Of a DNA stretch of 31,924 nt, positions 3,993 to 30,249 are shown piece after piece (position 1 is the stretch's first letter; every line of letters starts with the position of its first letter). The notes under the pieces are model-generated. The model made no database searches. It saw only the letters and a list, made by a program, of their open reading frames with translations, and was not told the origin of the DNA. The translations under genes and the position numbers were made by a program. The DNA is taken from positions 1 through 31,924 of IMG/VR virus record IMGVR_UViG_3300047462_000068. One strand, written 5' to 3'. The stretch is from a virus.

Positions 3993-5090
3993 TTAGAGGC
4001 CGAGCATCTGCACGAACGCCGCCGGGAGACGGATGACCGAACCCCATGCGCCGCCGGTGACCTTCTGCTTGAAGGAGGACAGCGCGCGGACAATGCCATG
4101 CTGACGCATCTTCTCGGAGAACGCGCAGTATCCGGTCTTCTCACCCTGCATTTCCGGTGCGATCAGCTGGAAGAGGTTGCCAGCGGAGAGGCCCTGCGGG
4201 TTCGCTGCGGTGAGGGCGCCGTACTGAACGGCGGTCACAACCCTGAGGTTGGGGAACGCCTCTTTCAGCATGGCGGTGACGGTGATACCGTACTGGTTGG
4301 TCGCCTTCAGCGCGATGCTGACAGACGGCGCAAGGCCGAGGACAAGAGGCGAGTTCTCGTCGATGTTGCCGCCGGTCTGCGCCACGAGCTGGATGTACGC
4401 CGACTGGATGTCGTTGTAGATCTCGTTCGCCGTCGCGTTGATCGCGTTGCCCGCAGTGATCCAGCGGTTTCCGCCAGCGGCCTTGACCGAAGGCGTCAGG
4501 GTCGCGTTGACCGCGATGCCCGGATCGTTGAGCAGGCCGTAGTTCTGAAGTCCGCCGACACCGAAGAAGTAGACCTTGTTCTCAAGGTTCTTCAGCGTGA
4601 TCGCGGCGGCCTTGTCCTTCTGCGCAACGGTATTGATCATCGCGAGGTTGTTGATGTCGATCTCGAGATCTCCGACTTCCTTGATGGTCTCAAAGATGTA
4701 GTTCTGGCGCGTCTCGAAGTTCATGTTGAACCCGGAAACACCGTTCTCCTCGAAGTCGCCGTACGTGCTGGCTTCACCAGTCGCCTCGACAATCGGGAAC
4801 TCGATGGCGCGGGTCGACCAGTCGCCCTTACGGACTTCCCCGAGGATCTCGGCTGCCTTGGTGGGAGCGAAGATGACTTCGAGAACCTGCGGATCGACCA
4901 TGGTCGTCAGCACGGAGGGGATGCCACCGGAGGGGGTGGTAACCAGCTGCGGCTGGGCGTCCATGGCGAGGCGGTAGTCGTGGCGGTACTCGTCCGCGAC
5001 GTAGCCGAGGGCGTCGGGGAGGATGACACCCATCTCTGCGACGCGGGCCTTGTCGGCAGCCCACTTCGCCATTGCTTCTGACTTGTTCAT
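3993..5090 (-). CDS. Major capsid protein (DUF2184-like)
   Basis: A 365-residue protein, ATG 5090 behind AAAGGAG. It has the layout of the DUF2184 major capsid family: helical N-arm, EILGEVRKGDWSTRAIEFPIVEATGEASTYGDFEENG pattern at about 83-120 (E-loop/strand region), long central helices (NLAMINTVAQKDKAAAITLKN region), and a C-terminal KVTGGAWGSVIRLP beta strand. It lies downstream of protease/scaffold and cement genes, the standard order. It should be the most abundant virion protein. Family from recognition; role strongly supported by context. Confidence 0.85.
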   Translation of the reverse strand: MNKSEAMAKWAADKARVAEMGVILPDALGYVADEYRHDYRLAMDAQPQLVTTPSGGIPSVLTTMVDPQVLEVIFAPTKAAEILGEVRKGDWSTRAIEFPIVEATGEASTYGDFEENGVSGFNMNFETRQNYIFETIKEVGDLEIDINNLAMINTVAQKDKAAAITLKNLENKVYFFGVGGLQNYGLLNDPGIAVNATLTPSVKAAGGNRWITAGNAINATANEIYNDIQSAYIQLVAQTGGNIDENSPLVLGLAPSVSIALKATNQYGITVTAMLKEAFPNLRVVTAVQYGALTAANPQGLSAGNLFQLIAPEMQGEKTGYCAFSEKMRQHGIVRALSSFKQKVTGGAWGSVIRLPAAFVQMLGL

Positions 5091-5102
5091 TAGTGGGCTC
5101 CT

Positions 5103-5594
5103 TTAGAAAGTGCTGATCTTGACGAGCTCGCCAGCGGCTGCGGCGGACTTGGTGGTGAACTTGGTCGCGACGTTCACGCCAGCGTTGGCGACGAACTGCG
5201 GCGTGCCGTCGGCGAGTGCCGCGTAGACGACCGCGCCGCGGGCAACGGCTGCGCCGCTGGAGTTGCGGGCGAAGAAGTCGCCCGCCTCAAACAGCGAGAC
5301 GCCCGATCCCTGAGGGATGATCATCGTGGCGTCCGCCAGCCACAGCGTGATCACCGTCAGATCACGGTGGACGAAACCATCGGGAGCGGTGGTCAGCGGG
5401 GCTGCGACGTTGCTGACAACCGGCAGTCCGGTGGCTGTCGGGTCGATCCAGGCGAAGCGGCCGATGATGACACCGGAAGCACCGGCGACGAGGCCGCCGG
5501 GGCCAGCGTTGACGACTGCGCGGGGGTTGGTGGAAGCGAAATCACCTTCAACGCCAATGGCGGGGACGGTGTTAACCTGTGACGGGAAGGGCAT
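5103..5594 (-). CDS. Capsid structural cement protein, gp24-like
   Basis: A 163-residue protein with AAAGGAG before ATG 5594. The N-terminus (PFPSQVNTVPAIGVEGDFAS) and the following N-P-R-A-V-V-NAGPGG and GRFAWIDP segments are typical of gp24-like cement proteins, beta-rich proteins that bind the capsid surface at symmetry axes. It ends with an alternating Ala/Thr/Ser beta segment. The position directly upstream of the capsid gene, 12 nt away, fits co-expression with capsid. Confidence 0.8.
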   Translation of the reverse strand: MPFPSQVNTVPAIGVEGDFASTNPRAVVNAGPGGLVAGASGVIIGRFAWIDPTATGLPVVSNVAAPLTTAPDGFVHRDLTVITLWLADATMIIPQGSGVSLFEAGDFFARNSSGAAVARGAVVYAALADGTPQFVANAGVNVATKFTTKSAAAAGELVKISTF

Positions 5595-5606
5595 GCGTAT
5601 TCTCCT

Positions 5607-6326
5607 TTATGCGCGGCCGATGCGCTTGGCGGTCGGGAAGCGTTTGTCGAAATCGTCTGCGTTGAGGGCGGCGTCGGATGCGATCCGGTTGCCGTTGGCG
5701 GCCGCGCCGGGGAGCGGCTGCGCCTTCAGGACGGCTGACAGGGCAGCGACCGGAAGACCTTCCATTCCATCGACGCCCAGGGTCTTGAGCGCGTGCCGAA
5801 GGATTTCCTCGGCGGAGTCCATGACAGCCAGCTTGCCGACCCACGGTTCGACCGTGCGCTCGGCGGTGCGGGCTGCACGGAGACGCTCGATGGTCTTCGT
5901 CTCAGCCTCCTGGACGGCCACCTTGAGAGCGGCGTCCATCGCGGCCTTGGTGACCTTTTCGGCTTCCTCGGTGGCGGACTTGGCAACGGGAGGAACGACA
6001 ACGGCGTCGGCTTCCTTGACCACGGGCTCGGCAACAACATCGTCGGCGACGACCGGAGTGCAGAGAGCGGTAATGGCGGCGATCATTTCCGGTGTCGCCG
6101 CTTCGCCGAGGATCGCCTTGATCTTCGTGGTGATCTCGTCGTCGTCGGTGGCTGCGGGAACGACCGTCGTCACCGGCTCGGCGGGCTCCGCCGGATCTGC
6201 CTCGAGGACTTCGAGCAGGTCGATGATGTCGCTGAGTTCGGCGTCCTGTGCGATGAGGCCGCGAAGGGCGGTGCTCAGAGTGTTCCTGGCCGCCATGGCA
6301 GCGCGAGGAAGGATTTTCTTCGCCAT
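5607..6326 (-). CDS. Nested in-frame scaffold protein (internal start)
   Basis: Inside the protease gene, ATG 6326 (codon 203) has a strong AGGAGA 8 nt upstream, as good as any gene start here. It would yield a 239-residue protein starting MAKKILPRAA that contains only the helical scaffold region. This repeats the lambda C/Nu3 arrangement, where one gene gives protease-scaffold and scaffold alone. The start site is visible; production of the short form is inferred. Confidence 0.55.
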   Translation of the reverse strand: MAKKILPRAAMAARNTLSTALRGLIAQDAELSDIIDLLEVLEADPAEPAEPVTTVVPAATDDDEITTKIKAILGEAATPEMIAAITALCTPVVADDVVAEPVVKEADAVVVPPVAKSATEEAEKVTKAAMDAALKVAVQEAETKTIERLRAARTAERTVEPWVGKLAVMDSAEEILRHALKTLGVDGMEGLPVAALSAVLKAQPLPGAAANGNRIASDAALNADDFDKRFPTAKRIGRA

Positions 6327-6932
6327 GTGGCGGATCTCCTGTTTGAGTTGGATTGCTTCTTGAATGGCGGCATCGCCGACCATGACGTCCGGACCTGCGC
6401 GGCCCCGCTCGACGATGGCGACATGATTTCCAACGATGGAGACCATCCGGCCGTCGAAGTGTTCGCCGCCGACATCCCCGGGGGTCATGTCGGCAGTGAA
6501 GTAGTACGCCGACGAGATTTCCCGCTGGCCGCCGCTCTCGATGTCCCGGATCGCGGTGGCGTCCCAGATCACCATTGAGTTCTTGAGATACGGGGCGTCG
6601 AACTCCGCATCGGTCCCCGTGGCGCCGATGACCGCCTGCTTCTGCGGCTCACCGGCGTTGACGGGGACGTGCCTGTTGAGCACCTGCACCAGGTTGAATG
6701 TCGGTGCGGCCTTCGTCAGTTCCTCGGGATCCCGGTAGAGCTGGTAGACCTTCTTCGGATCCAGCCCGAGCGCCTCGCAGTCGGGGATTTCCGATCCCTG
6801 GTATCCGCAGATGTTCGATTTCGAGATCGCCGTGACGGCGACATGCAGGCGGCCGTCCGCGTCTTTTGAGCGGACCGAGATGGAGGCGCGGTCAAACGCC
6901 ATCCGGTCACCGCTAGGCGTCGAAGTTGCCAT
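5607..6932 (-). CDS. Prohead protease (DUF2213) with C-terminal scaffold region
   Basis: A 441-residue protein starting at ATG 6932 behind GAGGA. The first 190 residues match DUF2213, an HK97-type prohead serine protease relative: candidate catalytic His 88 (NRHVPV), Ser 140/141 (REISSAYYF) and His 170 (GNHVAIV). The rest (about 200-441) is Ala/Glu/Lys-rich and helical, like an assembly scaffold, with an acidic Val/Pro linker. This fused protease-scaffold layout is known in several phages; the scaffold part is expected to be cleaved during maturation. An internal start at codon 203 probably makes free scaffold. Catalytic residues are assigned by motif only. Confidence 0.8.
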   Translation of the reverse strand: MATSTPSGDRMAFDRASISVRSKDADGRLHVAVTAISKSNICGYQGSEIPDCEALGLDPKKVYQLYRDPEELTKAAPTFNLVQVLNRHVPVNAGEPQKQAVIGATGTDAEFDAPYLKNSMVIWDATAIRDIESGGQREISSAYYFTADMTPGDVGGEHFDGRMVSIVGNHVAIVERGRAGPDVMVGDAAIQEAIQLKQEIRHMAKKILPRAAMAARNTLSTALRGLIAQDAELSDIIDLLEVLEADPAEPAEPVTTVVPAATDDDEITTKIKAILGEAATPEMIAAITALCTPVVADDVVAEPVVKEADAVVVPPVAKSATEEAEKVTKAAMDAALKVAVQEAETKTIERLRAARTAERTVEPWVGKLAVMDSAEEILRHALKTLGVDGMEGLPVAALSAVLKAQPLPGAAANGNRIASDAALNADDFDKRFPTAKRIGRA

Positions 6933-6956
6933 GCGGGTTATCCTCGGAGGCTAGGG

Positions 6957-7757
6957 TTAGTCGGCCCGGAGTCCGGGGATCACCGCGCAGCAGGTGCAGC
7001 GGCAGTTGGGCAGCATGCCGGGGAAGATCCGCTCACCGTCGATGAGGGCGCCTTCCCGGACGTTGTAGGTTTTCCCGCTGTAGGCGACGTGGCTTACACG
7101 CGGATGACGTCCGGCGCCGGAGTGTTGCCACACCGCGTCTTCGACGCCGATCTCGAGGAACCGCGCCCGCTGGATCGCGGAGGTCGCCATGTTGTTCTGG
7201 GTGTGCGCGATGAACGCAGCCCGGTTTCTTGTTAGGTCGTAGCGGTCCTCAAGTTCTTTGGTCAGCCATCCCAGATCGCGGCCCTGCTGAACGCTGCGCG
7301 CCACCAGCTGCTCGACGTGCGCCAGGTGCTGCTGGGCGATCGATTTGATGAGCGATACGTTTTCGTGGATGCTTCCCCGAAGCACGTCATCGACGGCCGC
7401 GGTCGGCCTGAAGGCCACCGTCATGCCGCCAGCCTTGAGCGCCGCCTTCAGCGCGCCGTCTGAACGGTCCGCCGCAGACTTTGCGAAGTAGGCCGCCAGG
7501 TCCGGAGCCAGCTTCGCGAAACGGGCTTCCCATCTCTTCGCCAGCCGCCTGAAGGCCCAGCGGAGGACCATCGCCGGGCGGGCATCCTGTGCCAGGACCG
7601 GAGGTGCCTTGTTGTAGGCCGCCGTCAGCCAGTAGGTCAGGCTGCCGTGCATCTCGTCGATGAGGGCTTCCAGACGCTTGCGGTAGGCTGCCTCTATTCC
7701 GGCGTTTGGATGGACAGGGGCAATCGTGCGAGGAGGACGGCGCGCTGCTTTTGCCAT
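6957..7757 (-). CDS. Minor head protein, Mu gpF-like
   Basis: A 266-residue protein, ATG 7757 behind GAGGG. The C-terminal half carries landmarks of the phage Mu F-like domain: helices ending in R-x-x-F-I-AHTQNN, then VWQHSGAGRHPRVSHVA and the terminal GMLPNCRCTCCAVIPGL, where PNCRC is the family signature. Such proteins sit inside the portal vertex and may be ejected. The N-terminus (AARRPPRTIAPVHPNAGIE) is basic. It lies 13 nt after the portal gene, the usual order. Confidence 0.85.
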   Translation of the reverse strand: MAKAARRPPRTIAPVHPNAGIEAAYRKRLEALIDEMHGSLTYWLTAAYNKAPPVLAQDARPAMVLRWAFRRLAKRWEARFAKLAPDLAAYFAKSAADRSDGALKAALKAGGMTVAFRPTAAVDDVLRGSIHENVSLIKSIAQQHLAHVEQLVARSVQQGRDLGWLTKELEDRYDLTRNRAAFIAHTQNNMATSAIQRARFLEIGVEDAVWQHSGAGRHPRVSHVAYSGKTYNVREGALIDGERIFPGMLPNCRCTCCAVIPGLRAD

Positions 7758-7770
7758 GCGCCGCCCTCAC

Positions 7771-9492
7771 TCACGCCAGAGTCCACACCCGGTTGTCTTC
7801 GAGATCCTCGCGGACAGACTTGACGTCGAGGTCAGCCCAGTCGAAGGGTTCGACCGTATCGCTGTGGCTGACCACGACCATGGTGCCCTTCACCGAAACC
7901 ACCGATCCTGAACTCGGACCCTTTTCAGTCTGGCCGTCACCCAGGAACTCCACGCGGTCACCGACCTTGGGAAGCTCCGTCAGCGTGTCGGCCGCCGGGA
8001 GGCCATCCTGATCGTCGTCGGTGCCGTCGACGGGTTCGGAGACATCCACGGTCAGGTCGAGGTTGGCGTAGAGACTGCCGCGCTCCCGGGCCAGACGCTG
8101 GCGTTCCTCCTCGGGGGAGATGACGCCCTTGTCGATCAGGACCGCTGCGGTGTCGGCTTCCGTCTTGCGGATGGTCGACTTCTCGACTTCGTTGGTTTCC
8201 TCGAGCGAGGACCATTCCCATCCGATGGCGGGATCGATCTCGCCGAACTCGGAAAGCTGGATCGCATCCAGGACGGTCTTCATCGGCGCACCGAACAGGT
8301 GGACCTGTAGGGCAACCACCCGGTCACGCCAGGCGTCCATCTCGCCCTCGGAGGAGGCGTTGAGGCCGGACGGCGTGATGCCGAAGAGCTTCACCAGAGG
8401 CTGGCCGTCCGGGAACGCGATGCGCTCCTGACACTGGGCCACCAGCTTATCGAGGCCGCCGAGCGGGGCCGAGATGTTGTCGAGTTCCTCGGTGTCCTTG
8501 TTGATCGCCATGACGCCGCGGTTGTCACGGACGAGGTTGAACAGCTGCATGCGGTTGTCGAGGTTTTCACCGACGCCCAACCCGTTCTGCTGCGCCGACA
8601 TGTCCGTCTTGAGGACGAAGATCGTGAATGCTTCGATGAGGTCGGAGACCGACTTGCGCGCCCGGATCCACTCGTCGACAAACGGCTTTGCCATCTGGAT
8701 CAGCGACAGGCCGCCGAACATGTAGGCCGGACGCATCATCTCCGGGATCTCGCACGAGATCATCGTGATGAGGCGGGAGCGATGAACCGCGCGGCCCATC
8801 ACGAACCAGGTGACGGGCCGGTAGAAGTCCGGGTCCAGCGGGTCCGTGGTGTTGTAGGCGCCGGGGTAGGTCCAGACCGGCTCGACGACATGGAACCGCT
8901 TCAGGTCGCCCTTGCCGATCTTCTCGGGGGTCATCGTCAGCGGCGTCAGAAGTTCGGCGGTGTCCTTGGTGGTACCGACGTCGACATAGATCTGGGCGCG
9001 GCCGAAGAAGCCGTCGTGGTCGGCAGCCTTCCGGAACAGGTCGCGGACGTTGTAGCGCACGAGCGCCTCGTCGATCGTCTTCAGCTTTACCGACTTGTCC
9101 GCGTCGCCGGTCGACGTCAGGCGACCCCATTTACGGGTCAGCTCCTGCGAGCGGGTGCCGACGAGACGGCGGTATTCCGGGCGCTGCGCGAGAGCGGACA
9201 GCACCGGATAATTCAAGAACTCCAGCCCTTCGCCGGAAAGACCGTAGAAGGATTGCCCGTAGCTGGATGCGTAGCTGTAGAGATCCGACATGCTGCCGGA
9301 GTCCATCGCCATCGCATTGGACGGCAGGACGCCGGGAGGCGGCTTGGGGATCGTCCAGGGCGTGGCGGCGGGCGAGGAATTCCGTGTCCGCTTGGTCAGG
9401 AACCTGGACAGCGTGTCGAAGGTGACCCTGAAGCTGGACTTCTTCTCTGGTTCGGCTGGCTGGGGCAGGACGGCGACGGGGCGCTTCGCCAT
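7771..9492 (-). CDS. Portal protein (DUF1073 family)
   Basis: I choose ATG 9492 (MAKRPVAVLPQP) because GGGGTGG lies upstream and a longer frame would overlap the terminase gene. The 573-residue product matches DUF1073 portals: a Tyr/Ser/Gly-rich early segment (SDLYSYASSYGQSFYGLSGE), YPVLSALAQRPEYR, HDGFFGRAQIYVD, and the FGITPSGLNASSEGEMDAW core near residues 395-415. The last 80 residues form an acidic linker plus a small beta domain (GDRVEFLGDGQTEKG), an add-on I cannot name. The portal is the DNA gate at one capsid vertex. This family is sometimes labelled Acb1-like in automatic annotation; context says portal. Confidence 0.85.
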   Translation of the reverse strand: MAKRPVAVLPQPAEPEKKSSFRVTFDTLSRFLTKRTRNSSPAATPWTIPKPPPGVLPSNAMAMDSGSMSDLYSYASSYGQSFYGLSGEGLEFLNYPVLSALAQRPEYRRLVGTRSQELTRKWGRLTSTGDADKSVKLKTIDEALVRYNVRDLFRKAADHDGFFGRAQIYVDVGTTKDTAELLTPLTMTPEKIGKGDLKRFHVVEPVWTYPGAYNTTDPLDPDFYRPVTWFVMGRAVHRSRLITMISCEIPEMMRPAYMFGGLSLIQMAKPFVDEWIRARKSVSDLIEAFTIFVLKTDMSAQQNGLGVGENLDNRMQLFNLVRDNRGVMAINKDTEELDNISAPLGGLDKLVAQCQERIAFPDGQPLVKLFGITPSGLNASSEGEMDAWRDRVVALQVHLFGAPMKTVLDAIQLSEFGEIDPAIGWEWSSLEETNEVEKSTIRKTEADTAAVLIDKGVISPEEERQRLARERGSLYANLDLTVDVSEPVDGTDDDQDGLPAADTLTELPKVGDRVEFLGDGQTEKGPSSGSVVSVKGTMVVVSHSDTVEPFDWADLDVKSVREDLEDNRVWTLA

Positions 9493-9508
9493 GCTGACCA
9501 CCCCTAAT

Positions 9509-10837
9509 TTATCGGCGACTTGGAGCGGAGAACCGTTCGAGGTCGGATTTCGTGACGACCACCGTGTTCGAACCGTGCATGCCCATGAAGTAATAGCCGG
9601 TCGCATCCACGTAGTGGTCGTACCCGCTCTTCTTGTCCGGCTCGTTCGAGTCCTTGGCGTATGAGTGCTTCTGGTAAGCCGAGATGCTTTTCTGGCATCT
9701 CGGCGAAACAAATGCCTGACGCGTTCCGTCCGCTGCGCAGAACCGGGCGTTCGTCAGGTTCAGGCGCTGCCGGACAGGCGGGTTCTTCGCCGGGGCGACG
9801 ACTTTGTAGCCGCCCGCCTTCAGGATGCTGTGGTCCGTCTGCCCGTTTGAGGACGTGTGGCCGGAGGCGCCCGAGGCGTCCGGGTAGAACGTGATCCTGC
9901 GCTTGGCGCCGGGATATTTCTCATCGACCGCCTTCACCAGCTTGTCGGTGTCGGAGCCGTCCAGGATGATCTCGTCAACCTGGTAATCCACGCCGCCGAC
10001 GTTCACCCACACCGTGGATGTCATCGGATTCAGGTTGAAGTCCTGCCCGATATGGATCTGGGCTGAAGAGCGCCAGTCCGACAGGGGGCATTCCCTGACG
10101 TTTTCGATGGCATCGAAGGCGTAGAGGACGACACCGCCGTGCGTCTCGAAGCTCGCTTCCATTTCCTGACGGAAGGTGCGGGGATCAAGTGACCGTCGGA
10201 ACTCCGCGACTTTTTCGGCAGACAGGATGTCGGAAGACTTCCAGGTGAACATGCCCCACGCGGAGGCGTCACCGTCTTCCCTCATGCGGCTCTTGGCATA
10301 CTCGCAGGTATCGAAATAGTGGTTGCGGCCTTCCGGCACACCGATGAGATCACACCAGCCGTCGCGGTCGGCGAGTGCGGGGAAGACGTTCTCCGGCCAG
10401 GCGCCCGCCTTCATGTTGGCATATTCGTCGAGGATGCCGCCGTCCCAGGGAGAACCCTCGATACGCTGCGGCTTGTCCAGACCGACAACCACGATCTCTG
10501 CGCCGGTGACCAGCGTGACCGTCAGCGATGTCTCGGAAATGTCCGAGATGAAATCGCGCGGATACATCGCCTTCAGGTCGTTCCAGTAGATCGTCTTCGC
10601 CTGATCGCGTGTCGGCGCCCCAGCGAAATAACGGGGGCGCGCGAAGTTGCCGCCTTTGAGGGAACGGATGACCAACTTTCGCTTGGCAAGCTCAGTCTTT
10701 CCGGAACGCCGTCCGCAGGGCAGGCAGTTGAATTGGTGCGGGCTGTTAAAGTAAGCCGACTGGACCGGATGCGGCCTAAGCGGGGTCCAGCGCGGCGTCA
10801 GGAGTGTCGGAGCCGGTGGCGTCAAGAGCAGTGCCAA
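9509..10837 (-). CDS. Terminase large subunit
   Basis: A 442-residue protein with ATPase Walker A CGRRSGKT (41-48), Walker B GILDEYAN with acidic D137/E138, and a C-terminal RNase H-like nuclease marked by HIGQDFNLNPM, FYPDASG and DHYVDATGYYF. It pumps DNA into proheads and cuts concatemers. The start is a TTG at 10837, overlapping the small terminase gene by 62 nt; the exact start is less certain than the body because the first 20 residues are Pro/Leu-rich without a good ribosome site. The portal gene follows after 16 nt. Confidence 0.9.
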   Translation of the reverse strand: MALLLTPPAPTLLTPRWTPLRPHPVQSAYFNSPHQFNCLPCGRRSGKTELAKRKLVIRSLKGGNFARPRYFAGAPTRDQAKTIYWNDLKAMYPRDFISDISETSLTVTLVTGAEIVVVGLDKPQRIEGSPWDGGILDEYANMKAGAWPENVFPALADRDGWCDLIGVPEGRNHYFDTCEYAKSRMREDGDASAWGMFTWKSSDILSAEKVAEFRRSLDPRTFRQEMEASFETHGGVVLYAFDAIENVRECPLSDWRSSAQIHIGQDFNLNPMTSTVWVNVGGVDYQVDEIILDGSDTDKLVKAVDEKYPGAKRRITFYPDASGASGHTSSNGQTDHSILKAGGYKVVAPAKNPPVRQRLNLTNARFCAADGTRQAFVSPRCQKSISAYQKHSYAKDSNEPDKKSGYDHYVDATGYYFMGMHGSNTVVVTKSDLERFSAPSRR

Positions 10838-22475: not shown

Positions 22476-23297
22476 ATGGAAACGTTCGTCGGCTTCGACA
22501 GCGCGTGGATGGGTAACGTCAAGGCGCCGGGTGCCATCTGCGCGGTGACTATGGAGGACGGCGCCCCGGTCCGGTGGCATCCGCCGGTGCTGGTCGGCTT
22601 CGATCAGGCGCTCACCTTCATCACCGACGTCACCCGCGGCAGCCGCTACAGCCTGGTCGCTCTCGACCAGCCGACGGTCGTCCCCAATCTCACAAGCAAC
22701 CGCCCGGTAGAGCGGCTTGCTGGATCCCTGGTGGCCTGGAACGGTGGGGGCACCCAGAGCAGCAATCGCGGGCGGCTGGGCATGTTCTGCGCCGCCTCGC
22801 CGATCTGGGGCTTCCTGCGCTCCCTGGGCGCCATCGAAGACCCCGAGGCTGCCAGGACAGCTACGGACGGCTTGTATCTCGTGGAGACCTACCCGGCTGC
22901 CGCCCTGCCGACGCTGGCGGCGTCCAGTTTCGGGCGGCTGGCGGCGCTGAAATACAATCCGAAGCCGAGATCCAAGTTCCGTCCGGACGACTGGATCACG
23001 GTTGCCACCGCAGCGCAGGCGGAGTCCCTGTCACTGGGATGCGCCGACGTTGCCGACTGGTGCGTTACGGCTGCCGGGATCCCGAAGGTTGTCAAAGCGG
23101 ACCAAGACAAGCTGGATGCCGTGATCTGCGTGCTGGTGGCGATTCGGTGGCGTCTCCGTCCCAGGACGAACAGCGTCATGCTGGGCGACTTGGTGACCGG
23201 CTACATGGTCATCCCGGCAAGCCCGGACGTCGGAGCCTACTTGACGGCGGCCGTGAAGGATAAGGGCGTGCCGATTGACGGGCAGGTTCCGGTGTAA
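22476..23297 (+). CDS. DUF429-like predicted RNase H-fold nuclease
   Basis: A plus-strand 273-residue protein, ATG 22476 behind AGGA. It shows the DUF429 layout: first strand FVGFDSAW with Asp 8, SLVALDQPTVVPN, a conserved region with RPVERLAGS and G-G-G-TQSSNRGRLGMF, VETYPAAALPTL, and the last helix KADQDKLDAVICVLVA with acidic residues. This family is predicted to be an RNase H-like nuclease, without a settled substrate. It reads opposite to its neighbours and converges with an XRE gene that begins 1 nt after its stop. Confidence 0.75.
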   Translation: METFVGFDSAWMGNVKAPGAICAVTMEDGAPVRWHPPVLVGFDQALTFITDVTRGSRYSLVALDQPTVVPNLTSNRPVERLAGSLVAWNGGGTQSSNRGRLGMFCAASPIWGFLRSLGAIEDPEAARTATDGLYLVETYPAAALPTLAASSFGRLAALKYNPKPRSKFRPDDWITVATAAQAESLSLGCADVADWCVTAAGIPKVVKADQDKLDAVICVLVAIRWRLRPRTNSVMLGDLVTGYMVIPASPDVGAYLTAAVKDKGVPIDGQVPV

Positions 23298-23621
23298 TCA
23301 GAAGTCGTCGTCGGCGAGATGCGGCGGCAACGGCACGAACGGCGGCCATCCTCCAACCGGCGACGAGATGAGACCGGGGCCGCTGGGGAAGACCTGGGCG
23401 GCCGTCAGGTCCAACGCCCAGAGCGCAGCGGCTGTGATGCCGACGGACACGGAAGGATCCCCACGCTCGACCTTCCGCAGCGTGGCGGGCGTCACGAACA
23501 TCCGGGCGGCCAGCGTCTTCATGGTCAGCCCCTTAGCCATCCGAGCCACCCTGATGTTGTTGCCTGCAATCTCGAGTCCCTCGGTGACGGCGGCTGGCAT
23601 CCTGTCGGTCATCTGGCTCAT
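23298..23621 (-). CDS. XRE-family HTH regulator
   Basis: I choose ATG 23621 because GGAGA lies 9 nt upstream; a TTG 15 nt earlier overlaps that site. The 107-residue protein has an XRE-type HTH at about 21-70 (NNIRVARMAKGLTMKTLAAR, then TPATLRKVERGDPSVSVGI and LWALDL), like HipB-type antitoxins and small phage repressors. The C-terminus is Pro-rich and acidic at the end. Last gene of a long coupled operon; no toxin-like partner is visible next to it. Confidence 0.75.
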   Translation of the reverse strand: MSQMTDRMPAAVTEGLEIAGNNIRVARMAKGLTMKTLAARMFVTPATLRKVERGDPSVSVGITAAALWALDLTAAQVFPSGPGLISSPVGGWPPFVPLPPHLADDDF

Positions 23622-23641
23622 GAGAGAGTTCTCCAATGCTT

Positions 23642-23914
23642 CTAACCGATGCCCGCCAGGATATCGGTGGCATTCAATCCCCTGGCGGCCAACTCACTGT
23701 GGACGGCTGCGAGGAACGGGTGCCAGCCCGGCAGCTGGTGCCGGTGACCGCGAGTATAGCGCAGCAGGCCGAGCATTTCCGGCCGCGTCGCGCCGGACAG
23801 GTCACCCGGGTTCAGCATGGCGTCGAGGGCCGTGAAGTCGTCGTCGCGGAGCAGCTGCCGGATCCTGTCATAGAGATCCGTGTTGCGGGCCTCCAGGGCG
23901 GCTGCGGGCTTCAT
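23642..23914 (-). CDS. Small unknown protein
   Basis: A 90-residue protein; ATG 23914 overlaps the upstream TGA (ATGA), so translation is coupled. Helical and acidic start (DLYDRIRQLLRDDDFTALDAML), then HRHQLPGWHPFLAAVHSELAARG. The stop lies 20 nt before the XRE start. No family recognised. Confidence 0.65.
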   Translation of the reverse strand: MKPAAALEARNTDLYDRIRQLLRDDDFTALDAMLNPGDLSGATRPEMLGLLRYTRGHRHQLPGWHPFLAAVHSELAARGLNATDILAGIG

Positions 23915-24141
23915 GGGTTCACCGGCGCAGTCGGCTTGAACCGGAGAAGCTGCCGGGTGGCCCAGTCTGTTTTCTCGAGGGTGCCCGAGACAGCCCTTTG
24001 GAGAGCCGCGCCGTCCGTGGATCCCCGGGAGTCTTGCTCCGTGCGTTCAAGATGCTGGAGCATCCCGCCGCACTCGCGGATGAAATTCGCGAGGAACCGC
24101 ACCATGCCCTCGTCGACCGTCTCGAGTTCGGGGAACGTCAT
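23911..24141 (-). CDS. Small unknown protein
   Basis: A 76-residue protein with a strong AGGAGGG 4 nt before ATG 24141. Features: acidic N-terminus (TFPELETVDEGMVRFLANFI), ECGGMLQHLERTE in the middle, and a basic, Pro-containing end. No family recognised. It lies 9 nt after the previous gene and overlaps the next, as part of the same operon. Confidence 0.65.
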   Translation of the reverse strand: MTFPELETVDEGMVRFLANFIRECGGMLQHLERTEQDSRGSTDGAALQRAVSGTLEKTDWATRQLLRFKPTAPVNP

Positions 24142-24150
24142 GCAGCCCTC

Positions 24151-24417
24151 CTAAAGCCACCGAGTTTGGTGCTTCGATCTCTTCGCCGGATCCTTGTCCA
24201 GCGCGACGTTCTTGATGCAGGTCTTGCAGGTTCCCTTCGCGCTCCAATTATTGCGGGCAATGCTGAAGCTCGAGCCGTTACCCCGGTTCCATCCGTGCGC
24301 GCACATCGGCAGAAGGTCATCACCAACGCATTTGTAGAGGTGCGACACAACGTCGTCCGGGCTATTTCGGCATGCTCCCGAGATGTAGTCGTCGCCAAGA
24401 TCGATGATGTCAAACAT
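24151..24417 (-). CDS. Small Cys-containing protein, possible zinc site
   Basis: ATG 24417 shares its A with the TAA of the XRE gene (TAATG), and GGAGGG lies 7 nt upstream. The 88-residue product has Cys at ISGACRNS, YKCVGDD, LPMCAHG and GTCKTCIKN; the CxxC with upstream Cys/His could bind zinc. The C-terminus is basic (KDPAKRSKHQTRWL). No family recognised. Confidence 0.65.
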   Translation of the reverse strand: MFDIIDLGDDYISGACRNSPDDVVSHLYKCVGDDLLPMCAHGWNRGNGSSFSIARNNWSAKGTCKTCIKNVALDKDPAKRSKHQTRWL

Positions 24418-24743
24418 TACGCAGCCCTCCGCTTGTGCAAAACCGCGATCAGGTCGGCGACAACCTGGCGGTGATCCGACGTCAGCTCGGCAAACCGTTT
24501 CCACAGCTCGTCACCCGCCCGGCTGCCGCCGATCTCATCCGAGACGCCGGACAGAAAGTCAGACGACACGCCGAGGGCGCGGGCCATCTTGCGGAGATTG
24601 TCGCCCCCTGGCATCCGGCTGCCGCATTCGTATTTGGAGATCGATCCCGACGGGATACCGGCTCGGTCGGCGAGCTGCTGCTGGGTGAAGCCCCGGAGGC
24701 AGCGGGCCTGCTGGATCCGGCTGGTGTGCCAATCATGCGGCAT
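24417..24743 (-). CDS. XRE-family HTH regulator
   Basis: ATG 24743 (MPHDWHTSRIQQARCL) has GGAGGA 7 nt upstream, so I reject longer forms starting near 24758 or 24824. The 108-residue protein has a canonical XRE HTH at about 9-62 (RCLRGFTQQQLADRAGIPSG, SISKYECGSRMPGGDNLRKM, ARALGVSSDFLSG). Its C-terminal helix carries LWKRFAELTSDHRQVVADLIAVL, as in many small phage repressors. It probably controls its own operon or an early switch. It is the second XRE gene in the operon. Confidence 0.8.
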   Translation of the reverse strand: MPHDWHTSRIQQARCLRGFTQQQLADRAGIPSGSISKYECGSRMPGGDNLRKMARALGVSSDFLSGVSDEIGGSRAGDELWKRFAELTSDHRQVVADLIAVLHKRRAA

Positions 24744-25101
24744 CTGAGGTTCCTCCATACAGACGGAGAACCCGTGCCGCGCGGTTATCTCCCCGTGTGT
24801 GACGCCAGCCCTCGACGGCGGCATGGTGTTCGGTGTTCGTGCAGCGGTAGGTCACCTCGCAGTCGGCGACACGGTCGATGGTGCTGGGCCAGCCAGCGGC
24901 TGCCAAATCATCCCCTTCCGCGAAGGCCACGAACCACGTCTCGCCGGTGGGCCTGTGCAGGACATGATCACCGCAACGGGGCAGCTTCAGGCTGGTCTCA
25001 TTATCCTTCAGATACTGGTAGATCCTTCCCTCGTGATCCTCCAAGGCATCATGGGCGTCAGACAGCATGAACTGAAGGTCATAGTCGGATGTCCGCCGCA
25101 T
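24733..25101 (-). CDS. Unknown protein, 5' end unresolved
   Basis: The first usable ATG is 25101 (MRRTSDYDLQFMLSDAHDAL), giving 122 residues with CGDHVLHRPTGETWFVAFAEG and CEVTYRCTNTEHHAAVEGW. Coding-quality sequence clearly continues upstream in frame to about 25173 (DGSDPVDKVRSLIWDARIAC), yet that stretch has no ATG, GTG or TTG. An ACG at 25179 has GGAGGA 5 nt upstream, and an ATG at 25172 lies one frame away, overlapping the previous stop. So there is a rare start, a frameshift or a sequence error. Function unknown. Confidence 0.65.
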   Translation of the reverse strand: MRRTSDYDLQFMLSDAHDALEDHEGRIYQYLKDNETSLKLPRCGDHVLHRPTGETWFVAFAEGDDLAAAGWPSTIDRVADCEVTYRCTNTEHHAAVEGWRHTRGDNRAARVLRLYGGTSDAA

Positions 25102-25168
25102 CGCATCGTTGCAAGCAATCCGAGCATCCCAGATCAGGCTGCGGACCTTATCGACCGGGTCGGAGCCG

Positions 25169-25531
25169 TCATTCTGCGTAGGTTTCCTCCGTCTCTGCGG
25201 TCGGCCACGAAATCTCGGTCATCCTCGAAAGCAGATCGACCGCACGCTCAAGGTCTCGGCATGCCAACGACGCCATTGACGACCGCTGCCGGGAGAGCTC
25301 TCCATGCGCGCGCACCAGGTGGCAGGCGACGGCGACGACGACTTCATGCTCGGTCACCGGGTTCAGCAGCGGGCCTACTGTGGAGAGCGCCTGGCAGGCT
25401 CCTACGGCCGCCGTGGACAGCGCCCTGACGGTCTGCACGTAATCCTTGCTTGCAGACATCCTCTCGAGAAGGACGGCCATGGAGTAGGCCGCCTGCAAGG
25501 TGTGGGTGGCGAGTTGGATTTCTCTAGCCAT
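25169..25531 (-). CDS. Helical unknown protein
   Basis: ATG 25531 lies inside the last codons of the upstream HAD gene (8-nt overlap). The 120-residue product is helical and Ala/Leu/Val-rich (REIQLATHTLQAAYSMAVLL, ALSTAAVGACQALSTVG, EVVVAVACHLVRAHGELSRQ) and ends with an acidic tail (ETEETYAE). No clear membrane span and no family recognised. Confidence 0.65.
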   Translation of the reverse strand: MAREIQLATHTLQAAYSMAVLLERMSASKDYVQTVRALSTAAVGACQALSTVGPLLNPVTEHEVVVAVACHLVRAHGELSRQRSSMASLACRDLERAVDLLSRMTEISWPTAETEETYAE

Positions 25532-26183
25532 GGTAGGCCGCCAGAGCTCCGCGGATGGCTTCGGCTGTGGTCGGTGCAGTTGCCTCAAAGGACTTCGGTC
25601 TATAGTAGACAATTGAACACAAGCCAGACCTAGCTTCATTCAAGAAGGCTTCCGCCGATACAATAACCGCCTTGGTCTCGCCCCCGAAGATTGTGAGTTC
25701 AACTCGATAATCCGCAGGAACCGCGGACAGCGCGCTTTCGATAGTATCTGGAAATTCAACCTTCCTGTTGCGATAATTCCAAGGTCGGTATTTCGCGATC
25801 CTCGCAGGCTTCAGGGCATCCGCATTCCAGTTGCCATCGAAGCGGCGAGCGCGGTCATCAATGGATAGGAGCGCCATTGGCTTTACGGTGGGGAACTCGA
25901 ACCAGGTGAGAACGTCGATGTTCGAGAGGTGGAAGAACTCCGGCTGCTCAACATGAAATATCCACTGCTCAAGCAGCCACAAGCGCATGGCCTCGATACC
26001 CTCAGGAGTCCTCGACCTGGACGAGAAAATGGCGAGTCGAAAATGATCTTTGGATTCTGCCGCCCACTCGAAGAAGCCCGGCACGACATCGCCGTAGATT
26101 GAGCCGTCCTTCCAGCCGTGGTGATACGAATGAATTACTCCGTCGAAATCTATGGAGATCAGCTTTTTCTGTTTGCTCGCCAT
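25524..26183 (-). CDS. HAD-like hydrolase
   Basis: ATG 26183 has AGGTGG 5 nt upstream; a GTG 9 nt earlier is possible. The 219-residue protein has HAD motif I LISIDFDGVIHS (D12, D14), motif II LAIFSSRS, a Lys region FPTVKPMAL and motif III LLSIDDRARRF, so about the first 120 residues form a small phosphatase-type domain. The remaining 90 residues (VELTIFGGETKAVIVSAEAF, YYRPKSFEATAPTT) are a separate beta-containing region. It may act on nucleotides or modified DNA ends. First gene of an eight-gene coupled operon under promoter copy 5. Confidence 0.8.
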   Translation of the reverse strand: MASKQKKLISIDFDGVIHSYHHGWKDGSIYGDVVPGFFEWAAESKDHFRLAIFSSRSRTPEGIEAMRLWLLEQWIFHVEQPEFFHLSNIDVLTWFEFPTVKPMALLSIDDRARRFDGNWNADALKPARIAKYRPWNYRNRKVEFPDTIESALSAVPADYRVELTIFGGETKAVIVSAEAFLNEARSGLCSIVYYRPKSFEATAPTTAEAIRGALAAYHG

Positions 26184-26210
26184 ATCGGCCACCTGTAATC
26201 CGAGTGACCA

Positions 26211-26249
26211 ATTATCTTACCGGCGGCCGCAAAACCTCAGGAAGTCGAC
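26211..26249 (-). promoter_or_regulatory. Promoter-like element, GACTTCCT class, copy 5
   Basis: Minus strand: CGACTTCCTGAGGTTTTGCG, then GATAAT (26211-26216) 22 nt after CTTCCT. The TGA inside CTTCCTGA is also the stop codon of the DUF3780-like gene. It leads the HAD operon, start 26183. Confidence 0.7.
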
Positions 26250-26740
26250 TTCAAATACGTGGATTGCTCACTCACCGGGTTCTCCGCCAGCCCAATCCTC
26301 ACAGCCTCCCGCCACGCCGGTGACGCCGCCGCCTTCCTGGACAACCACCACCGTTCCTCGGGCCGCACGCCATGCCAGTTCGCCATGACGGCCGAGATGG
26401 CTTCCGCGGGCTGATCGCGGGCGACCATGAACAGGAGCCGGACTTCCTGCCCGAGGCAGCGGTCCATCCGGTTCTCGCCGACCTTGAACTTCGACGGCCG
26501 CAATCCGACCGCCTTCATGCTGGCGTTCAGGTCGCCTTGCAGCGCGGGCGACAGCAGGTTCCAGGATGCCCGGTCGATGGTTTCCCGGTGCTCCGGGCCG
26601 TCCGTGCCGACACCGGCATCTTCGGTCAGGGTGACAGGCGCACGGCGATCCGCCGGGATGGTGACCGCCCAGAAGTGCGGCCAGTCACCTACGGCGGCGC
26701 CGAAGCCTACGGTCGGCTGGTGGGGGTTCGGTGCGAACAT
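26237..26740 (-). CDS. DUF3780-like protein
   Basis: A 167-residue protein; GGGAG precedes ATG 26740 by 7 nt. It resembles the DUF3780 family as I remember it: VGFGAAVGDWPHFWAVTIPA, then PVTLTEDAG, DRASWNLLSPALQGDLNASM, LRPSKFKVGENRMDRCLGQE and MANWHGVRPEERWWLSRKAA near the end. DUF3780 is known mainly from bacterial anti-phage islands beside DUF1156 and DUF499 genes, so a phage copy is surprising. It could be a decoy or antagonist, or a borrowed function. The match is from memory, not a search. Last gene of the 28022-26237 operon. Confidence 0.65.
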   Translation of the reverse strand: MFAPNPHQPTVGFGAAVGDWPHFWAVTIPADRRAPVTLTEDAGVGTDGPEHRETIDRASWNLLSPALQGDLNASMKAVGLRPSKFKVGENRMDRCLGQEVRLLFMVARDQPAEAISAVMANWHGVRPEERWWLSRKAAASPAWREAVRIGLAENPVSEQSTYLKSTS

Positions 26741-26743
26741 GGT

Positions 26744-27208
26744 CTACTCCCGCTCGGCTTTCCCGACGGCGGCCGCCAGCTGGTCGAGGACGCCCAAATC
26801 CTTGGCCCGCAGCATTGCGAGGCGGTACCGCAGCATCTCAGGCTCTCTGATCTCATCCACGGTGATCAGCCCAAGCTCCAGGGAGATTTCCCGGCGCTGA
26901 CTGCCGTCCAGGTTCCAGAAGCGGTCAACCAGGTTCCGGGGCTGCGGCTCTACGGCGGCGGGCGGCTCGACGAACACGCAGACCGGCACCTGCCAGCCTA
27001 CCACATGCAGGATCACCGGCTGCCCGGCGACGATGTTGCGGATGTCATCGGCGTCAGGCACCCAGGCGCTCTCGCAGTAGGCCACGGTGCCGTCCGCATG
27101 CGTGGTCACCCTGATCGGCAGCGCACCGCATTCGCCGTCGCGGGCCGGATCCCAGTCGGCGGGTGCGCCGGGGGCGGCGTTCCAGCCGTCGATGGTTCCT
27201 GCGATCAT
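26744..27208 (-). CDS. Unknown protein
   Basis: ATG 27208 overlaps the upstream TGA (ATGA), and GGAGA lies upstream. The 154-residue protein starts with IDGWNAAPGAPADWDPARDG and then has a beta-type core (LPIRVTTHADGTVAYCESAW, PVILHVVGWQVPVCVFVEPP) and a helical C-terminus (LRYRLAMLRAKDLGVLDQLA). It looks like two parts: a small beta domain and a helical tail. No family recognised with confidence. Confidence 0.65.
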   Translation of the reverse strand: MIAGTIDGWNAAPGAPADWDPARDGECGALPIRVTTHADGTVAYCESAWVPDADDIRNIVAGQPVILHVVGWQVPVCVFVEPPAAVEPQPRNLVDRFWNLDGSQRREISLELGLITVDEIREPEMLRYRLAMLRAKDLGVLDQLAAAVGKAERE

Positions 27209-27654
27209 AGTGCTGTCTCCTTCAATCTTTGACGCCGTTGTCCTTCGACGACGGCCCATCCCTTATCCGTCAGATCGTGCGAACCGTCGGGAAGGCGCTC
27301 TCGGAATCCCTTCACGACAAGCTCGCGCCAAACGCCGCGCGTTGCTTCTGGAAGGTCGCCCCAGCGGTCCAAGACCTCTTGGGCCTCGGCGGACAACTCG
27401 TTCATGGGTCCTGTGACCGTATCTGCCACCAGCCCGCTTCCGGTGAGCGCCTGTGAGATTGCTTCATCCATGTCGACGGAGCCGCGCCAGAAGTCCTGAT
27501 AGATGAACCCCGTCTCCGCTGAGAACACCGTGATGTAGAAGTACCCGTCCGGCTCTCTGGTGATCGTGATGTCGAATGTCCGGTAGACGCCGAAGAACTT
27601 TTTGTAGTTCCGTTCCAGCGTTTGCACCCTCGGGCGACCCTTGTTCATAGCCAT
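27205..27654 (-). CDS. Unknown protein, possible winged-helix C-terminus
   Basis: ATG 27654 is chosen because AGGA lies 8 nt upstream; ATG 27648 overlaps the upstream TGA and is the alternative. The 149-residue protein has a basic N-terminus (NKGRPRVQTLERNYKKFFG), a beta segment (TFDITITREPDGYFYITVFS) and a C-terminal helix-turn-strand region (LPEATRGVWRELVVKGFRER, then HDLTDKGWAVVEGQRR) that resembles a winged helix. No family recognised. Confidence 0.65.
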   Translation of the reverse strand: MAMNKGRPRVQTLERNYKKFFGVYRTFDITITREPDGYFYITVFSAETGFIYQDFWRGSVDMDEAISQALTGSGLVADTVTGPMNELSAEAQEVLDRWGDLPEATRGVWRELVVKGFRERLPDGSHDLTDKGWAVVEGQRRQRLKETAL

Positions 27655-28022
27655 TGGATTCGTCCTTTCGTTACGTAGTAGTGCGACCCGCACGCCCACG
27701 ATTGATTGCCGATGCACGGCCGAAGCGTCGTGCCGTCCAGCGTCCATCCGTTCGGTGACTGCGGCCTCAGCGGTGTCACCACCTCCCCGCCGCAGCCGCA
27801 CGCGCACAGGTGGACCGCGACGCCGAAGTCAGCCGACACGTAGAGAACTCCGGGATGCAGGATCTCCGGCACATGGCGGACGTCCTGCCGTTCGAATGAC
27901 TGCACCTGGTCACAGTCCGGACACTCGCGGGCTTCGATCTCGTCGGCGACATAACCGCCGTGGCCGCATGCCTGGCAGGACACCCAAGGGCGTTCGTCGC
28001 CGTCGTCTTCGTCGAATGCCAT
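27645..28022 (-). CDS. DUF6527-like zinc-binding protein
   Basis: The start is ATG 28022 behind AGGA. The 125-residue protein has two zinc-type parts: CQACGHGG and CPDCDQV at 16-37, then ILHPGVLYVSADFGVAVHLC and CACGCGGEVVTPL, WTLDGTTLRPCIGNQ and CGSHYYVTKGRIQW. The second part matches the DUF6527 pattern as I know it, a family found next to bacterial E1/E2-like ubiquitin-type genes as well as in mobile elements. No such partner is visible here. First gene of a four-gene operon under promoter copy 6. Confidence 0.7.
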   Translation of the reverse strand: MAFDEDDGDERPWVSCQACGHGGYVADEIEARECPDCDQVQSFERQDVRHVPEILHPGVLYVSADFGVAVHLCACGCGGEVVTPLRPQSPNGWTLDGTTLRPCIGNQSWACGSHYYVTKGRIQWL

Positions 28023-28055
28023 CTCGCGGGTTTCCTGTAACATCGGGCAACAAAC

Positions 28056-28094
28056 ATCATGCCACCGGCGGCCGTCGAACCTCAGGAAGTCGAC
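28056..28094 (-). promoter_or_regulatory. Promoter-like element, GACTTCCT class, copy 6
   Basis: Minus strand: CGACTTCCTGAGGTTCGACG, then CATGAT (28056-28061) 22 nt after CTTCCT. It drives the DUF6527-like operon, start 28022, and lies just after a terminator. Confidence 0.65.
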
Positions 28095-28127
28095 GATCCA
28101 GCCGGGAGCGCGCCCGCCGCCGGACAC

Positions 28128-28161
28128 GAAAAAGCCGCCCAAGGATTGCTCCTGGGCGGCT
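28128..28161 (-). terminator. Rho-independent terminator
   Basis: AGCCGCCCA (28153-28161 on minus) pairs with TGGGCGGCT (28133-28141); the stem extends inside through GGA/TCC to a GCAA loop, and TTTTT follows on the minus strand. It ends the unit whose last gene stops at 28188. Confidence 0.8.
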
Positions 28162-28187
28162 GCGGATCGGCGGGCGCCTGCGAAAGG

Positions 28188-28397
28188 TCAGGCGGCGCGG
28201 TGCCGGGCAACGAATGCCCGCATCTCCCACTTGTTGCGCGCGGCATGCCTCTCAGCCAGCTTCTCGAGGAGTTCATCGGAGAGGATATGGAGACCTCCGA
28301 GATCGTTGATAGCGTCCGCCAGGAACTCCCTGCCTGTCTCACTGTCGATGCCGTATAAGGATTTGATCGTTAGGATGTTGTCGCTCCGGCTGGACAT
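28188..28397 (-). CDS. Small unknown protein
   Basis: ATG 28397 has AGGAGA 6 nt upstream. The 69-residue product: polar start (SSRSDNILTIKSLYGIDSET), acidic helix (GREFLADAINDLGGLHIL) and a basic end (AERHAARNKWEMRAFVARHR). It ends RAA with codons GCC GCC TGA, a trailer shared by several genes here. No family recognised. Confidence 0.65.
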   Translation of the reverse strand: MSSRSDNILTIKSLYGIDSETGREFLADAINDLGGLHILSDELLEKLAERHAARNKWEMRAFVARHRAA

Positions 28398-28447
28398 GGT
28401 GTTCTCCTGGGTGATGACGCCCGATTTCCGGGCATCCTGAATCCCTG

Positions 28448-28474
28448 AGGCCCGCCGGTGAACCGAGCGGGCCT
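28448..28474 (-). terminator. Intergenic hairpin
   Basis: AGGCCCGC (28448-28455) pairs with GCGGGCCT (28467-28474); the loop can form CGGT/ACCG too. No U-run. It lies between two genes of one unit, so it may be a processing or attenuation site. Confidence 0.45.
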
Positions 28475-28495
28475 GATTGAGGATGGCAGCGAGGA

Positions 28496-28903
28496 TCAGG
28501 CGGCGAGTTGAAGGCGGGCATCGCCACCGCAGAGTTCGACGATAGCCGCACAGTACCGGTCGGCGTCTTCGCGATCGCTGAAGGTCTGACACGTCCCGTC
28601 AAGTCCCCTCACATGCACTGCGATGAAAGCCTCTGTCCAATCCGACTCAGCCCAAACCGCGCGCACCACAGTGCGGCCTGAGTTCGTCTTTGTCTCAAAG
28701 ACCTCGATTGTCTCGTCGTAGTTCGAGACTACGCCGATGGATTCGATGACCCTCTGGTCAATGCGGCCCGCCAAGGTCAGAGGCGCAAGTAGTTTCACCA
28801 CGTCATCAGCCACTACCACGTGACCATTAATGCGGCTCATGATGCCGCCGATGGAGTGGCTGGTAGACCCGATGACCGGGAGACGTATCGTGTTCATTAC
28901 CAT
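28496..28903 (-). CDS. Unknown protein
   Basis: ATG 28903 has GAGGA 9 nt upstream. The 135-residue protein has a beta-rich start (NTIRLPVIGSTSHSIGGIMS), a segment VVADDVVKLLAPLTLAGRID, and a C-terminal part (VRAVWAESDWTEAFIAVHVR, then TCQTFSDREDADRYCAAIVE). It ends LAA. The first gene of its unit, preceded by conserved element copy A. No family recognised. Confidence 0.65.
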   Translation of the reverse strand: MVMNTIRLPVIGSTSHSIGGIMSRINGHVVVADDVVKLLAPLTLAGRIDQRVIESIGVVSNYDETIEVFETKTNSGRTVVRAVWAESDWTEAFIAVHVRGLDGTCQTFSDREDADRYCAAIVELCGGDARLQLAA

Positions 28904-28980
28904 TGGAAGCTTCCTCGTTCGTGTGGAACCCGCATATTCCAGCGGCATACCACTCAGGTAGTTTTCGGCTTTCCAACCAA

Positions 28981-29014
28981 CAAGCCTAAACGTGGACAAA
29001 GCAGGGATTTATTT
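28981..29014 (-). promoter_or_regulatory. Conserved tripartite upstream element, copy A
   Basis: Minus strand: AAATAAAT (29007-29014), 8 nt, TGTCCAC (28992-28998), 7 nt, CTTG (28981-28984). Identical spacing to copies at 16462 and 30208. It lies 78 nt before ATG 28903. The rest of 28904-29139 holds only a terminator. Confidence 0.6.
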
Positions 29015-29091
29015 AATGTTGGCAAGTAGTCGACGGATGCTTACCACCGAACGGTGATATTCCCGCCGAATTGCGGGTGCCCGGACATGGA

Positions 29092-29122
29092 AAGGGCCGC
29101 TCGGTTCTTACCGGCGGCCCTT
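29092..29122 (-). terminator. Rho-independent terminator
   Basis: AAGGGCCGC (29092-29100) pairs with GCGGCCCTT (29114-29122), and the loop forms CGGT-TCTT-ACCG. TTTCC follows on the minus strand. It ends the gene stopping at 29140. Confidence 0.7.
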
Positions 29123-29139
29123 GCAGCGGATGTCCTTAA

Positions 29140-29352
29140 TCAACACGCTCTCTTCGCGTTCCGGATCGCCAAGCGCGCCATAGAAGCCAGCGTCGGCGAC
29201 GACCAGACGACCCGTTTGTCGTAGACCAGGACGCCGCGGAATAAGGGGCCGTCTTTCCGAAAGCTTGGCCGCCCAACTGGTCTCTGGATTGCCTCGTAGC
29301 GCCAGACGGCATCGAAATGAAGCTGAGCGGGATCGGTCTGGTAATTGTGCAT
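29140..29352 (-). CDS. Small basic unknown protein
   Basis: ATG 29352 has AGGAGG 8 nt upstream, so I reject a longer frame. The 70-residue product is basic: MHNYQTDPAQLHFDAVWRYE, then RPVGRPSFRKDGPLFRGVLV and ASMARLAIRNAKRAC. No family recognised. Last gene of the 30122-29140 group, with terminators on both sides. Confidence 0.65.
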   Translation of the reverse strand: MHNYQTDPAQLHFDAVWRYEAIQRPVGRPSFRKDGPLFRGVLVYDKRVVWSSPTLASMARLAIRNAKRAC

Positions 29353-29424
29353 GTGGTTGTCCTCCTGGACAGGAGGTAGTCCGAACATTTCCGGAATCTA
29401 CAGAAATCGCGCGCCTCGAGAAAG

Positions 29425-29455
29425 AAAAGCCGCCCGAGGATTTCTCCCGGGCGGC
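29425..29455 (-). terminator. Rho-independent terminator
   Basis: GCCGCCCG (29429-29436) pairs with CGGGCGGC (29448-29455), with GAG/CTC in the loop; TTTTCTTTCT follows on the minus strand. It ends the gene at 29482. Confidence 0.75.
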
Positions 29456-29481
29456 CCTGATTGGAGGATGACTGACGGATG

Positions 29482-29790
29482 TCAGGCGGCGGGCATTTCG
29501 TTCGGTTCGAAAAGACCCAGGTATTCCACGTAGCTCATGCCGGGATGCTTCTCGCAGACCTCGGCGAAGGAGTTCTCGCGCAGGGTCTTTGCAAACCCCT
29601 TCTGTATCTCCGCCTCTGACACCCCATTCCTCGCGTCGATGAAGGCGATCTTCGCCCTGACCTGCCTGAAACGCTGATCGTCCTTTCCGGGCTTGCCGTC
29701 ATTTCGAATAATGTTGGCGCAATGCACCAACTCGAGGCGAGATCCGATAGTCGTGGAGTCTGCAATGCGGCGGGCTTCGGTGAGTGTCAT
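29482..29790 (-). CDS. Small unknown protein
   Basis: ATG 29790 has AGGA 9 nt upstream; a much longer frame reaching 30231 is Arg/His-rich and out of frame with the real upstream gene, so I reject it. The 102-residue product is helical: MTLTEARRIADSTTIGSRLE, IIRNDGKPGKDDQRFRQVRA, NSFAEVCEKHPGMSYVEYLG. It ends PAA. No family recognised. Confidence 0.65.
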   Translation of the reverse strand: MTLTEARRIADSTTIGSRLELVHCANIIRNDGKPGKDDQRFRQVRAKIAFIDARNGVSEAEIQKGFAKTLRENSFAEVCEKHPGMSYVEYLGLFEPNEMPAA

Positions 29791-29812
29791 GGTGGCGTTC
29801 CTCGAGTTCGGT

Positions 29813-29834
29813 GCCGGGAAACTTCTCGCCTCCC
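29813..29834 (-). repeat. Leader direct repeat, copy 1
   Basis: These 22 bases (minus: GGGAGGCGAGAAGTTTCCCG, then GC) match 30152-30173 at 21 of 22 positions. Each copy lies 22-30 nt before a start codon, and GGGA...TCCC could pair, so it may be a shared leader or operator. Confidence 0.5.
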
Positions 29835-29846
29835 TTGAATCCTTAT

Positions 29847-29871: not shown

Positions 29872-29894
29872 TGATTGGAGGATGGCTGGTGAGG

Positions 29895-30122: not shown

Positions 30123-30151
30123 TGTGAAGTATCCCGTCGTCTTCGAAGTCT

Positions 30152-30241: not shown

Positions 30242-30249
30242 CGTGGCCG

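Follow-up and report, generated by a model that had tools for sequence, protein, structure and literature searches.

The DNA analyzed here (the window) is the whole of a 31,924-nucleotide stretch from the IMG/VR virus record IMGVR_UViG_3300047462_000068. An earlier note on this DNA had taken it for a phage, and it does belong to a genuine tailed phage: PHROGs profiles identified a structural block on the minus strand (3993..10837), with genes for the major head protein, the head protease, a MuF-type head protein, the portal and TerL (best E-values of 1e-34 to 1e-116). Comparison of positions 20001-31924 with 50,697 phage records gave no close DNA relative. Related phages were recognized by head protein in two viral contigs (at 58% and 52%) and at four loci resembling prophages, and no DUF3780 was detected in the parts read of these six.

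The gene under study, an orphan DUF3780 gene, lies at 26237..26740, exactly as first described, and is read from the minus strand, the plus frame holding a stop. It runs from an ATG at 26740 to a TGA stop at 26239-26237, is intact, displays coding bias (GC3 0.84) and encodes 167 amino acids (P0001). The earlier note had assigned it to DUF3780 from the pattern VGFG...PHFWAVTIPA and NWHGVRPEERWWL. Both are present in the translation, and the assignment held in profile searches: the protein matched Pfam PF12635 significantly (E 4.7e-30; 105.2 bits, gathering score 27), the alignment covering positions 3-164 of the 184 in the profile, and the PADLOC DUF3780 models with 88 and 80 bits. Since it scored 99.3 bits against NF042961, the NCBIfam equivalog for anti-phage DUF3780, which is under the cut-off of 200, the protein truly belongs, by sequence comparison, to the domain family but has diverged within it. 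It has no close relatives in viral contigs. Moreover, it keeps 21 of the 31 residues conserved in cellular copies, the PEERWWL block among them, whereas the other phage copies described below keep 26-31; with 10 of these 31 residues changed and the longest branch of the tree, it is the most diverged copy.

AlphaFold2 gave a model of high confidence (pLDDT 90.2, pTM 0.83). DUF3780 is reported to fold as a four-stranded antiparallel sheet with five helices (PMC12839542), and these elements are present in the model, in order, as four long strands and at least five helices. The structure prediction that had been suggested as a check is DUF3780-like in its order of elements. Comparison of the model with the PDB and viral fold libraries gave no match at E < 0.001.

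DUF3780 is the last of four tightly packed minus-strand genes that follow a terminator-like hairpin (28161-28133, minus strand) in the order DUF6527, unknown gene, GAAD protein, DUF3780. The first gene (27645..28142) carries a C-terminal DUF6527 domain (PF20137, E 5.7e-17). As the hairpin overlaps its first possible start, the true start is probably located further inside the open frame. A second long terminator-like hairpin was recognized from the sequence in the small-gene region (29458-29426, minus strand); terminator-like sites in the window are no commoner than in shuffled sequence. Relatives of the DUF6527 protein occur in three other phage records, Burkholderia FLC9, Erwinia pEa_SNUABM_29 and Dulem virus 40. 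The small gene that comes next (27205..27654) matched no family in Pfam, PHROG or NCBIfam. The third gene (26744..27208), immediately upstream of DUF3780, ends in a GTPase-associated adaptor domain (GAAD; PF19976, E 1.8e-11, 44 bits for a cut-off of 23.6; domain at 26765-26938), and 3 nt separate its stop from the DUF3780 start. GAAD is described as an adaptor of GTPase-centred conflict systems, where it is predicted to link effectors to GAP1 and to which it is said to be confined (PMC7159879). The GAAD and DUF6527 genes were looked at as possible anti-defence or accessory neighbours. No effector was recognizable in the GAAD protein, and no relatives of it were found among viral contigs or phage records. 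A GAAD was also seen in a Rubrivivax MAG (L046:148-1500, minus strand), at the C-terminus of a metallophosphoesterase encoded near a DUF499-DUF3780 pair.

Downstream of DUF3780, a gene at 25524..26183 (minus strand) is HAD-like/phosphoheptose-isomerase-like, with weak PHROG matches (phrog_23773, 1.3e-11; phrog_1238, 4.9e-8). Elsewhere, the window encodes an M16 (insulinase-type) metallopeptidase, unusual in a phage, at 20059-21333 (minus strand; both halves matched, E 1e-31 and 1e-30), an XF1762-family protein at 18134-18835 (plus strand; 156 bits), which also weakly matches the Mom DNA-modification family, and a DUF429 protein at 22476-23297 (plus strand; E 4.8e-7) oriented opposite to its neighbours.

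Apart from the reader role proposed for it, DUF3780 is not known to have a function. According to a 2026 survey, it is carried by 98% of Type-2 BREX-related (BR) systems, beside a DUF499 ATPase, a DUF1156 N6-methyltransferase and an HKD-helicase, in a family known from more than 1000 taxa; it is proposed to read modified bases, and RAMA and ASCH/PUA fusions are reported (PMC12839542). Our searches agree with this picture. BR partners accompanied DUF3780 at 12 of 12 plasmid loci and at both loci found in an alphaproteobacterial sample of 385 genomes. Among genome loci, all of the best 80 of 537 matches had at least one BR partner (at least two in 74, one in 6), a selection that leaves room for rare cellular orphans. 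Every cellular copy classified thus had such partners, which confirms that cellular DUF3780 is tied to BR operons.

The window is different. The earlier note had remarked that DUF1156 and DUF499 genes are missing from it, and indeed no DUF499, DUF1156 or PLD-helicase was detected there even at E up to 10, using profiles built from plasmid BR operons. The combination that defines a Type-2 BR locus (DUF499 ATPase, DUF1156 methyltransferase and HKD/PLD helicase) is absent, and the window DUF3780 does not amount to a BR system, nor does it belong to the curated anti-phage equivalog.

Similar orphans were found in other viral contigs by a search anchored on the single motif PEERWWL, which therefore missed divergent phage copies. 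Among the 26 contigs recovered, 19 also carry BR partners and seven carry DUF3780 alone. The former (L015-L023, L025, L026 and L030-L037) are IMG/VR viral contigs with Type-2 BR genes, which may be virus-borne or host DNA. The seven orphan contigs, read whole except for the last 4 kb of G002, displayed no BR partner; a helicase-like match in G004 (20 bits) was judged not to be one. Four of the seven (G002, G003, G006 and G007) have confirmed genes for TerL, portal, tape measure or head protease. G001 and G004 contain a phage-type polymerase/primase and G005 an exonuclease, by themselves weaker evidence of phage origin; hallmark genes are thus present in five of the eight orphan records, window included. 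The description of the window gene as a lone phage copy is right in that no island genes surround it, but has to be qualified, as these seven contigs hold orphan copies too. Among the 50,697 phage records, Proteus phage vB_PvuS_Pm34 (KY420199) was the only one found with DUF3780. Its truncated copy (gp4) is preceded just upstream by gp5 (L002:7332-7910), a C-terminal DUF499 piece in a 193-aa open frame with an Fn3-associated and an end domain. Orphan copies were seen in phages only, namely in the window and the seven contigs, the Pm34 copy being accompanied by its DUF499 fragment.

A tree of 120 DUF3780 domains, including the nine phage copies, rules out a single phage clade for all orphans. 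Five changes of phage state are needed on it, at least four of them forced by well-supported branches, so that phages would need to have captured DUF3780 independently, at least four times. The phage copies L024 and L029 group together, and L038-L040 adjoin a viral BR group (about 47% identity). L027 is placed inside a BR group with an Acinetobacter plasmid copy and shares 57% identity with L021, which is a BR copy from a viral contig. Pm34 gp4 falls inside a Vibrio/Pseudoalteromonas group, with 76% identity to a Pseudoalteromonas copy. The window copy and L028 each sit on a very long branch of uncertain placement. Apart from Pm34, the phage groups have long branches (1.4-3.8 changes per site; the median end branch is 0.13). 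Among related phage copies dN/dS is 0.07-0.26, which indicates purifying selection and hence that those copies are functional; for the window copy, no relative is close enough to be paired with it in this way.

Phage and BR copies differ at the C-terminus. In 65 non-redundant BR copies, the tail beyond the core is polar and 18-67 residues long (median about 35), and usually ends in a hydrophobic motif such as QLSLF, QLPLF, PTLDLF, TLPLF or HSQLSLNL; QSELL forms a conserved stretch in the middle of the tail. Of the 65 tails, 33 contain the pattern [LMI]x[LM]F, for which shuffling predicts 0.76 (and gave 4 at most in 1000 rounds), and 49 contain LF, for which shuffled tails give 6.9; the counts are not entirely independent, the tails being partly related. 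Neither pattern occurs in any of the nine phage copies. The window protein stops 16 residues past the core helices, with the short end AENPVSEQSTYLKSTS (26237..26287 including the stop, minus strand), which contains no LxLF-type motif. In the L027 and Pm34 copies a single residue follows the last core helix and no remnant of a tail is present downstream, whereas L066, a bacterial relative of the Pm34 copy, has a C-terminal extension of 200 residues. Orphans L024 and L029 have a differing 50-residue tail instead of none. The tail motif is also missing from BR copies L005, L010 and L050; thus the tail is not strictly needed, and its absence alone does not prove altered function.

The BR tail pattern is similar to the sliding-clamp motif of bacteria, Q-L-x-L-F, a weakly conserved sequence usually located at the C-terminus (PMC4549789). 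Clamp binding by BR tails is hypothetical, as Gln occupies the first position in a minority of them. The 2026 survey does not mention the clamp (PMC12839542), and the literature that could be searched proposes no recruitment of BR to replication through the DUF3780 tail. The PIP-box-like tail of L034 was considered as archaeal and dropped, the locus being Firmicutes-like by eye; a search of archaeal plasmids for DUF3780, intended for a comparison of PIP box and QLxLF, gave no match.

The explanation that we prefer, to which we give somewhat less than an even chance, is that phage DUF3780 is a tail-less subunit mimic that poisons Type-2 BR complexes. The folded phage core would take the place of native DUF3780 on its BR partner, for which the DUF499 ATPase, encoded next to it in the operon, is the most plausible candidate. 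The extension that BR copies have at the C-terminus (the clamp-like LxLF motif or, in some lineages, a C-terminal fusion domain) is missing from the phage copy, so that complexes containing the latter would fail to be recruited or licensed, if such is the role of the tail, and phage DNA may thereby escape restriction. The family assignment, the fold, the isolation from partners, the repeated capture, the constraint on related copies and the missing tail are the observed parts of this proposal.

Other explanations were weighed against it. First, phages might have co-opted DUF3780 to read bases, modified or unmodified, in their own DNA, for instance to protect or mark the phage genome. We consider this unlikely. 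The reader role and the RAMA and ASCH/PUA fusions put forward for the BR subunit (PMC12839542) are in its favor, as are the XF1762-family gene of the window with its weak Mom-family match and the location of the L038 and L039 copies among early/replication genes. However, DUF3780 is the only window gene with relatives in the other orphan phages, which thus share no common modification enzyme, and the fold libraries revealed no DNA-binding fold.

Somewhat less likely still is a functionless gene, either a recently captured passenger or a decaying remnant of a BR operon. The Pm34 DUF499 fragment beside a truncated DUF3780 does look like a piece of an operon, but the window gene is intact, has kept its coding bias, starts 3 nt behind its neighbour and encodes a protein predicted to fold well, and the dN/dS values of related phage copies also argue against it. 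Alternatively, a prophage might provide or adjust the subunit for a BR island of its host and thereby help to keep competing phages out. The conserved core and the purifying selection in related copies would suit a working docking subunit, yet BR islands of 98% of taxa already have a DUF3780 copy of their own (PMC12839542) and the phage copies are fast-evolving and tail-less; we regard this role as improbable. Finally, it is very improbable that the gene acts through its GAAD and DUF6527 neighbours as a decoy or sensor of a conflict system other than BR since, despite the single packed run that the three genes share, GAAD and DUF6527 are absent from all the other orphan phages, where the role of DUF3780 must be independent of them.

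The earlier note had offered two roles. A moron acting by itself against other phages is unsupported, as no effector accompanies the window DUF3780. The decoy idea is favored by the comparison (repeated capture, intact fold and core motif, purifying selection in relatives, tail loss and the adjoining orphan GAAD), while the interaction with a BR island or its inhibition stays at the level of what we infer. Two adjoining orphan parts of two conflict systems, GAAD and DUF3780, are compatible with a decoy cassette. A broader proposal, possible but doubtful in our estimation, is that phages repeatedly took the DUF3780 core without its recruitment tail as a dominant-negative subunit, carried here in an orphan-adaptor cassette (GAAD, DUF3780) directed against two defence systems; its corollary would be that a clamp-binding tail recruits Type-2 BR to DNA replication.

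Subunit mimicry of this kind has precedents. AcrIF3 mimics the Cas8f helical bundle and prevents Cas2/3 from being recruited, and Dmd of T4 is an antitoxin mimic (PMC10286901). In addition, BrxC, the BREX relative of DUF499, is inhibited by phage OrbA (PMC12839542). The proposed occupation of a docking site in a defence complex is alike in AcrIF3, Dmd and the window protein, but the first two are experimentally proven and mostly structural mimics, whereas the window DUF3780 is a sequence homologue and a putative mimic. It shares with the Type-2 BR subunit (PMC12839542) the Pfam domain, the predicted four-stranded sheet with helices and the PEERWWL core motif, and differs from it in standing alone in a phage, with no ATPase, methyltransferase, helicase or C-terminal tail, and in scoring under the NCBIfam cut-off. 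Pm34 gp4-gp5 (KY420199) likewise represents a truncated DUF3780 in a phage, gp4 being close to bacterial copies and adjoining a DUF499 fragment, of which the window has no equivalent.

The tail-less phage copies are natural reagents for finding the BR subunit to which DUF3780 binds and the role of its tail. If BR inhibition is true, they would represent a counter-defence against a family reported from more than 1000 taxa (PMC12839542), and inhibitors could then be sought by a general rule, as orphan parts of defence systems carried by phages.
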